Origin: Candidatus Sungiibacteriota bacterium
GTDB lineage: Bacteria > Patescibacteriota > Minisyncoccia > Sungbacterales > HO2-52-23
NCBI GenBank assembly: GCA_016196115.1
Contig: JACPYI010000002.1
Span: forward strand, 1 to 35,975
Direction: 5' to 3'
DNA length: 35,975 nt
Notes under the pieces: model-generated
Told to the model about the DNA's origin: nothing
Seen by the model: only the letters and a program-made list of their open reading frames with translations
Databases searched by the model: none
Program-made: the position numbers and the translations under genes
Part shown: in pieces, positions 8,326 to 11,154 of the stretch
How positions within the stretch are numbered: position 1 is the first letter of the stretch
How the letters are laid out: every line of letters starts with the position of its first letter

Positions 8326-8394
8326 TTTATAGAGGATTTGATCCTGGTCCAGGATGAACGCTGGCGGCGTGGATAAGGCATGCAAGTCGTGCGG

Positions 8395-8890
8395 ACACAA
8401 TCGCCAACTTCTAATCGCTAATCTATAATGAAATTATGAAAATGCATTTCAGGGAATTTAAGGTCTATAGAGATGCAAAAACCTTAGTAGTTCAAACATT
8501 CCGTTTGACGAGAAAGTTTTCAAGAGAATTTTATTATTTGTCAGATCAGATAAACAGAAGTGCTTTGTCAATTGTCCTTAATATTGCCGAAGGGTCGGCT
8601 AAAGGGAGTGACAAGGACTTTAATCGATACATAAAAAATTCTCTTGGGTCAGCAACAGAACTATCTGCAGCTTTTGAAATCGCGGAAGACCTTAGGTTGA
8701 TCACCAAGGAGGAATACGATACCCTTGATGCTGAAATACAAGAAGTTATCAAACAATTGGGTGGTTTCTCGAAATATTTGCGGCGCAATGATTAATCAAT
8801 GATCGCTAATCGATAATAAAAAATTCAAGATTAGTGATTGTAGATTTCTGATTGCGTGAGCGATTGGAGATTATAAGTTGGTGATTGCGT
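8395..8890 (+). other. Intervening sequence in 16S helix 6 (V1)
   Basis: The insertion of about 496 nt is bounded by an imperfect inverted repeat: 8395-8423 pairs with 8862-8890, 24 of 29 positions matching plus two G-U pairs. It extends helix 6 as a long duplex of the kind cut out by RNase III in rRNA intervening sequences. It carries the four-helix bundle ORF (8436-8795). It has no group I or group II core, so it is probably excised without religation or retained. Confidence 0.8.
8436..8795 (+). CDS. Four-helix bundle protein of the rRNA intervening-sequence family (S23/TIGR02436 type)
   Basis: The 119-residue product has the family hallmarks: a start like FREFKVYRDAKTLVVQTFRLT, then SDQINRSALSIVLNIAEGS, then NRYIKNSLGSATELSAAFEIA, and a C-terminal LGGFSKYLR helix. 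Such proteins are known from intervening sequences in 23S rRNA genes of Leptospira and Coxiella and also occur as free genes and as diversity-generating-retroelement accessory proteins. Here the ORF lies inside 16S helix 6, in the rRNA sense direction. A perfect TATAAT (8424-8429) ends 6 nt before the ATG, suggesting its own leaderless transcript, although no good -35 box is visible. Its molecular role is unknown; basic residues and the location suggest nucleic acid binding. Confidence 0.88.
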   Translation: MKMHFREFKVYRDAKTLVVQTFRLTRKFSREFYYLSDQINRSALSIVLNIAEGSAKGSDKDFNRYIKNSLGSATELSAAFEIAEDLRLITKEEYDTLDAEIQEVIKQLGGFSKYLRRND

Positions 8891-9246
8891 TAGCGGCGAA
8901 CGAGTTAGTAACACCTTGGCACTTACCTCACAGACGGGCATAACTCCGCGAAAGCGGGGCTAATTCCCGATATTATCTCCGTCGCAAGACGGCGATGAAA
9001 GGCCGCAAGGCCACTGCGAGAGAGGCCTAGGTCCTATCAGGTAGTTGGCGGGGTAACGGCCCACCAAGCCGATGACGGGTAGGGGGCGTGAGAGCGCGAC
9101 CCCCAACGGCGGAATTGAGATACGGTCCGCACACCTACGGGTGGCAGCAGTCAAGAACATTCGACAATGGGCGAAAGCCTGATCGAGCGACGCCGCGTGC
9201 AGGAAGAAGGGTTTCGGCCTGTAAACTGCTTTTCACCGGGAACAAG

Positions 9247-9416
9247 TCCGGCCCTTTTTGGATTCTTGTGTATTGTGTCATCCTCGCGAAACTTGTCCTC
9301 GTGAAAACGGGGAGCGGGGATCCAGAAAAACTGGATTCCCGATCAAGTCTGGGGGAATGACAAGGAAGATAGTAACATACTTCTTTATTTTTGTCAAGAG
9401 TCCAAAAAGGGCCGGA
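9247..9416 (+). other. Intervening sequence in 16S helix 17 (V3) built on a dispersed repeat
   Basis: A 22-bp stem (9247-9268 with 9395-9416, one G-U) extends helix 17. Between the arms lies a copy, in reverse orientation, of the GTCATTCCC repeat family (about 9277-9363), including a GGATTCCCGATCAAGTC core also found upstream of rmuC and between atp genes. There is no ORF. The repeat appears to have landed in the tip of helix 17. Confidence 0.8.
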
Positions 9417-9512
9417 TTGAGCGTACCGGTGGAATAAGAGGTTGGTAACTACGTGCCAGCACCCGCGGTAATACGTAGACCTCAAGCGTTATCCGGATTT
9501 ATTGGGCGTAAA

Positions 9513-9526
9513 GGGTCTCGAACACC
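9513..9526 (+). other. Deletion junction in 16S (helices 21-23 absent)
   Basis: The conserved GGGCGTAAAGGGTCTC runs directly into GAACACCAAAGGCGAAGG. In E. coli the corresponding blocks are about 135 nt apart (roughly 579 to 713). Helix 20 remains pairable (GTCTC with GAGAC at 9573-9577), but helices 21, 22 (5' strand) and 23 with the 690 loop are missing. Confidence 0.75.
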
Positions 9527-9888
9527 AAAGGCGAAGGCAAACTCCTGGCCATTACCTGACACTCATGAGACGAAAGCGTGGGCAGAAAAAAGGATTAGAT
9601 ACCCTTGTATTCCACGCCGTAAACGATGCACGCTCGTTGTTCCGAGTATCGACCCTCGGAGTGACTTAGCTTACGCGTTAAGCGTGCCGCCTGGGAAGTA
9701 CGAGCGCAAGCTTAAAACTCAAAGGAATAGACGGGGATTCGCACAAGCGGTGGACCATGTGGTTCAATTCGACGGCAACCGAGGAACCTCACCAGGGCTT
9801 GAAATGGCAGTGACATTCCGGGGAAACTTGGAACTTCTCACAAGGACGCTGTCACAGGTGATGCACGGCCCTCGTCAGTTCGTGATGT

Positions 9889-10712
9889 GATCCAAAAATT
9901 CGCATCCTCGCGGAGTAATCCGCGATGTAAAACTCGGCTCATATTGGTGAAGTCCCGCAATTTGTGGGATAATACCAAGGGAAGTTGGAAAATTATATGT
10001 CGGTTGTCTTTCGAGCCCGAAAAAATCAAGAATTGATTCTCACGAATCGCCAATTTGAAATTATCATTGGCTCTCTCTTGGGAGACGCGTACCTCAGTCC
10101 GCTCGGGAAAGTTCAGTTTGAACATAGTACCAAAGCGGAAGAATATCTGAAGTGGAAATTCCAAGAACTTGATGGAGCGCGATATAAAAAAATTGGATAT
10201 GTGGAAAGAACAGTAAGCGGAAATCTTACGTTTTCTTGCCGGTTTTGGACAAGACAATTCTTTCGGGCATTACGAAACGAAATCTATAACCCTCAAGGCA
10301 AAAAATATATTTCTTCAGGATGGCTTCAAAAAATTACTCCGCTCGCTTTGGCCGTCTGGTATATGGATGACGGCCACTATGAGAAAGCAAAAAAGAGATG
10401 CATTATTGCCACTGACGGTTTTAGCGATGACGACCGAGAAAAACTGCAAAAGTTTTTGAAGGATACATTTGATCTGAAGATTACGATCTGGAGTAATGGC
10501 AAGATAGCCATGACTCAATTGGAGACACTGAAATTCTTTAAGATCATCGATCCTTTTAGAATCGAGTGCATGGCATATAAATTTCCTAACCCCTTAACGA
10601 CTAATCCCGGAAGGGGATTGATGGTCCCGACAAGATCGGGATCATAAAACGCCGAGCTCCTTCAGTATTATATTGAAGGATGAAGGTATAGTCTGGGTCT
10701 GTAAAAAGACCG
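9889..10712 (+). ncRNA. Group I self-splicing intron in 16S (near E. coli 1078)
   Basis: Splice sites can be deduced from pairing. P1 joins exon GATGT (9884-9888) to GCATC (9902-9906) with a U-G pair at the 5' site. P10 joins the adjoining AATTC (9897-9901) to the 3' exon GAATT (10713-10717). The terminal G is 10712. P2 is CGCGGA/TCCGCG with a GTAA tetraloop (9909-9924). P3 is CTCGGC (9933-9938) with GCCGAG (10651-10656). P5 spans 9953-9969, P8 10659-10679, the P7 strand GGTATAGTC lies near 10685-10693, and P9 is 10696-10711. The joined exons match the length of the E. coli sequence exactly. The intron is 824 nt and carries an endonuclease ORF. Confidence 0.9.
9997..10647 (+). CDS. LAGLIDADG homing endonuclease of the 16S intron
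   Basis: The 216-residue product has two LAGLIDADG-type motifs: IIGSLLGDAYLS (about residues 23-34) and LAVWYMDDG (about 118-126), each with the catalytic acidic residue (D30 and D125). This is the two-motif, monomeric arrangement. It would cut an intronless 16S allele at the exon junction and drive intron spread, and may assist folding. The ORF sits between P6-side sequences and P3', so translation does not cover the core P3-P5 strands. ATG 9997 is preferred over TTG 9985. The frame is intact, suggesting a recently active element. Confidence 0.9.
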   Translation: MSVVFRARKNQELILTNRQFEIIIGSLLGDAYLSPLGKVQFEHSTKAEEYLKWKFQELDGARYKKIGYVERTVSGNLTFSCRFWTRQFFRALRNEIYNPQGKKYISSGWLQKITPLALAVWYMDDGHYEKAKKRCIIATDGFSDDDREKLQKFLKDTFDLKITIWSNGKIAMTQLETLKFFKIIDPFRIECMAYKFPNPLTTNPGRGLMVPTRSGS

Positions 10713-11154
10713 GAATTGTTCCCTTAAGTGGGGTAACGAACGCAACCCCCGTTGCATGTTATATGTGTCATGCGAGACTGCCTTCGTATAGAAGGAGGAA
10801 GGAGGGGATGACGCGAGGTCAGCGTGTCCCTTTGATGCCCTGGGCTACACACGTGGTACAATGGCGCGTACAATGGGTCGCCAAGTCGCGAGACGGAGCT
10901 AATCCCATCAAAACGCGCCCCAGTTCAGATTGGAGTCTGCAACTCGACTCCATGAAGCCGGAATCGCTAGTAAACGCAAATCAGCTACGTTGCGTTGAAT
11001 ACGTTCTCGAATCTTGTACTCACCGCCCGTCACGTTAAGGGAGCCGGGAGTGCCCGAAAGTCCGGATTCGTCCGGAATTACGGTAAGCTCGGTAACATGA
11101 ACGAAGTCGTAACAAGGCATCCGTAGCGGAAGCTGTGGATGGAACATTTCCTAC

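Follow-up and report, generated by a model that had tools for sequence, protein, structure and literature searches.

How can a protein be made from a gene that lies inside a ribosomal RNA gene, within an insertion that would be cut out of the rRNA precursor? The question is raised by an open reading frame (ORF) in the 16S rRNA gene of the window, by which is meant the whole stretch of 35,975 nucleotides that was analysed. In Coxiella, the best-studied case of an ORF in an rRNA intervening sequence (IVS), the Shine-Dalgarno region is lost when RNase III excises the insert, and S23p is probably not produced (PMC4990558), so a bypass of excision would be meaningful. The reading that we somewhat favour is that the ORF-bearing IVS in helix 6 is expressed from its own internal leaderless promoter, which would bypass excision by RNase III.

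An ORF-bearing insertion in helix 6 of the 16S rRNA gene

The 16S rRNA gene starts with AGAGGATTTGATCCTGG at about position 8332, and about 500 nt of inserted sequence splits its helix 6. The 16S 5' sequence AGAGGATTTGATCCTGG...GCATGCAAGTCGTGCGG (about 8332-8393) was found upstream of the ORF and GGCGAACGAGTTAGTAA downstream. The insert cannot be bridged by cmscan, which therefore calls the 16S only from position 8815. This gene is the single SSU match in the whole of this CPR genome. The features of the locus are as follows.

8332-11154, + strand: 16S rRNA gene, interrupted by insertions (start set by homology, end by RF00177)
8387-8423, + strand: 5' arm of the lengthened helix 6, forming 33 pairs with 8862-8899, the expected RNase III substrate
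8401-8406, + strand: weak -35-like hexamer TCGCCA (4/6) inside the 5' arm, with a 17-nt spacer
8424-8429, + strand: candidate -10 box TATAAT, beginning at the next base after the 5' arm (comparative enrichment)
8436, + strand: predicted leaderless transcription start at the A of ATG (from the -10 spacing)
8436-8795, + strand: four-helix-bundle (IVP/S23p) ORF, 119 aa (profile matches, structure prediction)
8797-8846, + strand: second hairpin, immediately downstream of the stop codon (folding)
8862-8899, + strand: 3' arm of the lengthened helix 6, pairing with 8387-8423

A preliminary description had placed an ORF-bearing insert in 16S helix 6, and this is borne out by profile matches to PF05635 and TIGR02436, by the flanking 16S sequence and by relatives that align at the same site. 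The insert is best classified as an ORF-bearing rRNA IVS replacing the helix 6 loop, and by analogy it would be excised by RNase III. PF05635 ORFs in CPR 16S insertions have already been reported (Tsurumaki et al. 2024, PMC11270868); the placement of an IVP ORF in a CPR 16S gene is not new, and the window is one more case. The main text of that paper contains no helix-6 placement, promoter, arm layout, selection or expression analysis for these ORFs, and the word 'promoter' does not occur in it. A literature search, conducted mostly outside subscription journals and supplements, turned up no description of an internal or leaderless promoter driving IVP ORFs of rRNA insertions.

Helix 6 is empty in some of the aligned relatives. 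Among those from the same family or order, G009, G004, G015 and G018 have an empty helix 6, G005 and G011 carry a distant four-helix-bundle ORF there, and G003, G010 and G017 carry ORF-less hairpins. A GIY-YIG-like ORF, recognised by eye only, was seen at helix 6 in G021, of the same family or order. With empty, ORF-bearing and ORF-less states among relatives, helix 6 emerges as a hot spot for insertion. In L140, from a same-order relative, the GIY-YIG-like ORF of 16S helix 6 has GATACT 8 nt upstream of its start codon ATG. The ORF-less helix 6 hairpins of L135, L136 and L139 are built from similar word repeats and may be what is left of insertions that lost their ORF.

The 16S gene of the window lacks 132 nt of a region that is otherwise well conserved and present in close relatives, with 78 rather than 210 nt between GCGTAAAG and GGATTAGATACCC. 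The gap maps to positions 9517-9522, and the missing part comprises helices 20-23 with the 690 loop. No copy of the motif of the missing 132 nt was found elsewhere in the assembly. The loss suggests a local assembly fault, or else a very odd 16S; given the probable fault, the window's 16S is not reliable base for base. The helix 6 insert lies about 600 nt from the gap, and its layout agrees with that of relatives. The same gene contains a LAGLIDADG_2 ORF (PF03161) in another insertion, at about 9990-10700, and is also extended by about 170 nt, at about 9245-9415, between the complementary sequences GTCCGGCCCTTTTTGGA and TCCAAAAAGGGCCGGA.

The encoded four-helix-bundle protein

The ORF at 8436-8795 matches PF05635 23S_rRNA_IVP (E 5e-29) and TIGR02436 (E 8.5e-29), and one PF05635 gene is present elsewhere in the genome. 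The AlphaFold model of the 119-aa product (pLDDT 96.6) matches the structures of XCC0516 (2gsc, TM 0.91) and BT_0352 (2rld). The predicted fold is shared, more distantly, by Avd of diversity-generating retroelements (4dwl, 8ub7; TM about 0.8), at about 11% identity. The most likely role, put forward tentatively, is that the protein binds its own hairpin element at the level of nucleic acid and helps that element to persist or spread.

Helix-6 copies and the layout of the stem

The preliminary description had suggested looking for the same family in other 16S helix 6 insertions. Copies were collected by protein search of genome contigs and whole genomes, followed by identification of the 16S motif upstream, which yields a collected set and not a frequency in CPR. 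In this way 21 helix-6 copies were found besides the window, representing at least two distant four-helix-bundle types.

In the window, positions 8387-8423 and 8862-8899 form a 33-bp stem, and the whole region folds with z = -8.2. Complementary arms were present in all 22 helix-6 copies, with z > 4 in 21. The distance from the end of the 5' arm to the start codon has a median of 18 nt, and that from the stop codon to the 3' arm a median of 1 nt, so that the gap is upstream of the ORF, where a -10 box would have to lie. A comparable asymmetry (medians of 23 and 2 nt) is seen in stand-alone relatives, and the arm layout alone is therefore no proof of a promoter.

Several of the stand-alone relatives (L022, L029, L030, L034, L035, L043; L031, L032, L037) lie either between tRNA-Thr and tRNA-Tyr or immediately upstream of tRNA-Trp, and are flanked by inverted arms of repeated words. 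They represent the same hairpin cassette at different transcribed RNA loci. The same cassette occurs in L005, L006, L013 and L018, beside an apparent ribosomal protein L28 gene recognised by eye. The words that make up its arms vary across lineages (AACAATT, GATTAGC, CTTAAAG and others) yet remain complementary.

The arrangement resembles that of the 23S IVSs of Leptospira and Coxiella, in which an S23p/IVP (PF05635) ORF also lies in the sense direction in the loop of an extended helix with complementary arms. Those insertions occupy helix 9, 25 or 45 of the 23S rRNA, whereas the present one occupies helix 6 of the 16S rRNA.

A candidate -10 box before the start codon

A perfect TATAAT ending 6 nt before the ATG had been noted in the preliminary description and was confirmed: the box at 8424-8429 is followed by GAAATT (6 nt) and then by the ATG at 8436. 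This 6-nt spacing is one that places the transcription start on the A of ATG. The complete match, TCGCCA-17-TATAAT, scores 10/12, and chance would give 1.7 matches of this quality over the window. Insofar as the promoter scan of the window does not rise above chance, the box is suggestive at this locus and the evidence for it is comparative.

In leaderless genes of Deinococcus and Actinobacteria, a -10 box lies 6-7 nt before the start codon. The locus shares with these genes the order of TATAAT, about 6 nt and start codon, with no Shine-Dalgarno sequence. It differs from them in that an rRNA gene houses the putative promoter, which has the arm of a processing stem on one side and the ORF on the other.

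Enrichment of -10-like hexamers at leaderless spacing

The window had prompted the hypothesis and was left out of the comparison with shuffles, which covers the 21 other copies. A good box was defined as a hexamer that agrees with TATAAT at 5/6 positions or more and ends 4-9 nt upstream of the start, a range set after looking. Good boxes were observed in nine of the 21 copies and perfect boxes in three. Dinucleotide shuffles of the 60-nt flank gave expectations of 1.3 and 0.07, respectively, and none of 3000 shuffles reached 9/21. With the clades weighted equally, P was 0.0003 against dinucleotide shuffles; for the exact 6-nt position alone, 3/21 copies had a match of at least 5/6 (P = 0.001, dinucleotide shuffle). 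Under the strictest null, a shuffle of only the last 16-25 nt, about 4 good and 0.4 perfect boxes were expected (P 0.004-0.01). Under this null the hexamer TAATAT performs as well as TATAAT at 5/6, which speaks against the leaderless reading. A mere A/T effect was considered as the source of the enrichment and rejected: local shuffles weaken the signal to P about 0.01, and an excess remains. No excess of -10-like hexamers was found 10-33 nt before the start in helix-6 copies. An enrichment of -35-like hexamers was present in these copies and is not trusted, because the arms consist of words such as TTAACA/TTGACA.

The perfect boxes lie at exactly 6 nt in L128, which encodes a different four-helix-bundle type, at 7 nt in L028 and at 9 nt in L112. 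TATAAT is absent from, for example, L004, L014, L024, L042, L179 and L180, and L026 lacks the perfect box carried by its near relative L028. A universal TATAAT in helix-6 copies was rejected, a good box being missing in about half (12/22). The expectation, in the preliminary description, that TATAAT would recur in homologous insertions thus held as an enrichment of -10-like hexamers at leaderless spacing and failed as a general rule.

Good boxes were found in 45% of helix-6 copies versus 16% of CPR genes generally (P = 0.002), 2.7% of the latter having a perfect box. In stand-alone type I relatives the counts were 7/36 for matches of at least 5/6 and 0/36 for perfect boxes, and 10% of the genes of this genome had a match of at least 5/6, as measured on about a third of the genome, taken as stretches. 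LAGLIDADG ORFs elsewhere in CPR loci were collected as a second set; four were found, with best matches of 1-4 of 6. Across CPR genes, -10-like hexamers peak 6-8 nt before the start, which suggests that CPR genes use leaderless starts. No Shine-Dalgarno sequence was found in any of the 22 helix-6 copies. As sequence evidence, the box enrichment supports, without proving, a leaderless promoter inside the rRNA gene.

Selection and descent

The reading frame is open in each of the 22 helix-6 copies. Five pairs of these copies have dS < 2, with dN/dS of 0.06-0.19; the other pairs were saturated or nearly so at silent sites. These ratios indicate that the four-helix-bundle protein is kept by purifying selection. 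The ORF at this locus, under such selection and with a -10 box at leaderless spacing, differs from that of Coxiella, which is decaying and apparently silent (PMC4990558). On the best protein tree, eight changes are required to explain the helix-6 location, and a minimum of three by starred branches; two distant protein types are involved. Boxes have therefore arisen or persisted along more than one line of descent. When location was compared with the -10 box on the tree, only three independent pairs fell on supported branches, too few to separate the association from shared descent.

Alternative explanations

The RNA that is translated might be the rRNA precursor or the IVS after its excision, the TATAAT being an accident of an A/T-rich linker. 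The sense orientation, the very high transcription of rRNA and the A/T richness of the linker between stem and start codon would all suit such a route, as would the 12 of 22 copies without a good -10 box and the P of just about 0.01 under the strict null. We nevertheless regard this explanation as doubtful, though it merits serious attention: the helix-6 copies have no Shine-Dalgarno sequence, the Coxiella IVS ORF is probably unexpressed from excised RNA (PMC4990558), and the excess of -10-like hexamers is position-specific and weaker in stand-alone copies with similar flanks.

A relic ORF, unexpressed within a neutral or selfish rRNA insertion, appears improbable given the intact reading frames and the low dN/dS of the unsaturated pairs, although selection could partly date from residence of the copies elsewhere. 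The decaying and undetected ORF of the Coxiella IVS (PMC4990558) and the ORF-less hairpins with arms of the same style (L135, L136, L139) are what such a history would be expected to leave. Still harder to credit is that the insert is a self-splicing intron and not an IVS. Many introns are reported in CPR 16S genes (PMC11270868); at this locus no Rfam group I or II intron family scored above the gathering score, the long arms pair directly with the ORF filling the loop, and PF05635 is not a homing endonuclease family.

A proposed route of expression

Expression from an internal leaderless promoter would proceed as follows. In the rRNA precursor the two arms would pair, RNase III would cut the stem and the insert would be discarded, as extrapolated from 23S IVSs; excision and discard would block expression of the ORF from rRNA. 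The ORF would be transcribed from its own promoter, with the -10 box in the gap of roughly 12-20 nt that separates the 5' arm from the start codon. This transcript would start at or next to the AUG and hence without the 5' arm. Such an arm-less RNA would be unable to form the RNase III stem and would be translated as a leaderless mRNA.

The general form of this proposal, to which we give an even chance, is that CPR helix 6 hairpins carry their own leaderless promoters: the copy made from the strong rRNA promoter would be cut out and lost, and an internal, RNase III-proof mRNA would yield the protein independently of ribosome synthesis. If true, a leaderless internal promoter would be a concrete and testable answer to how IVS ORFs are expressed. 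The rRNA gene would then contain another transcription unit that overlaps it and runs the same way, and mRNA starts may account for some of the 5' ends mapped within CPR 16S genes.
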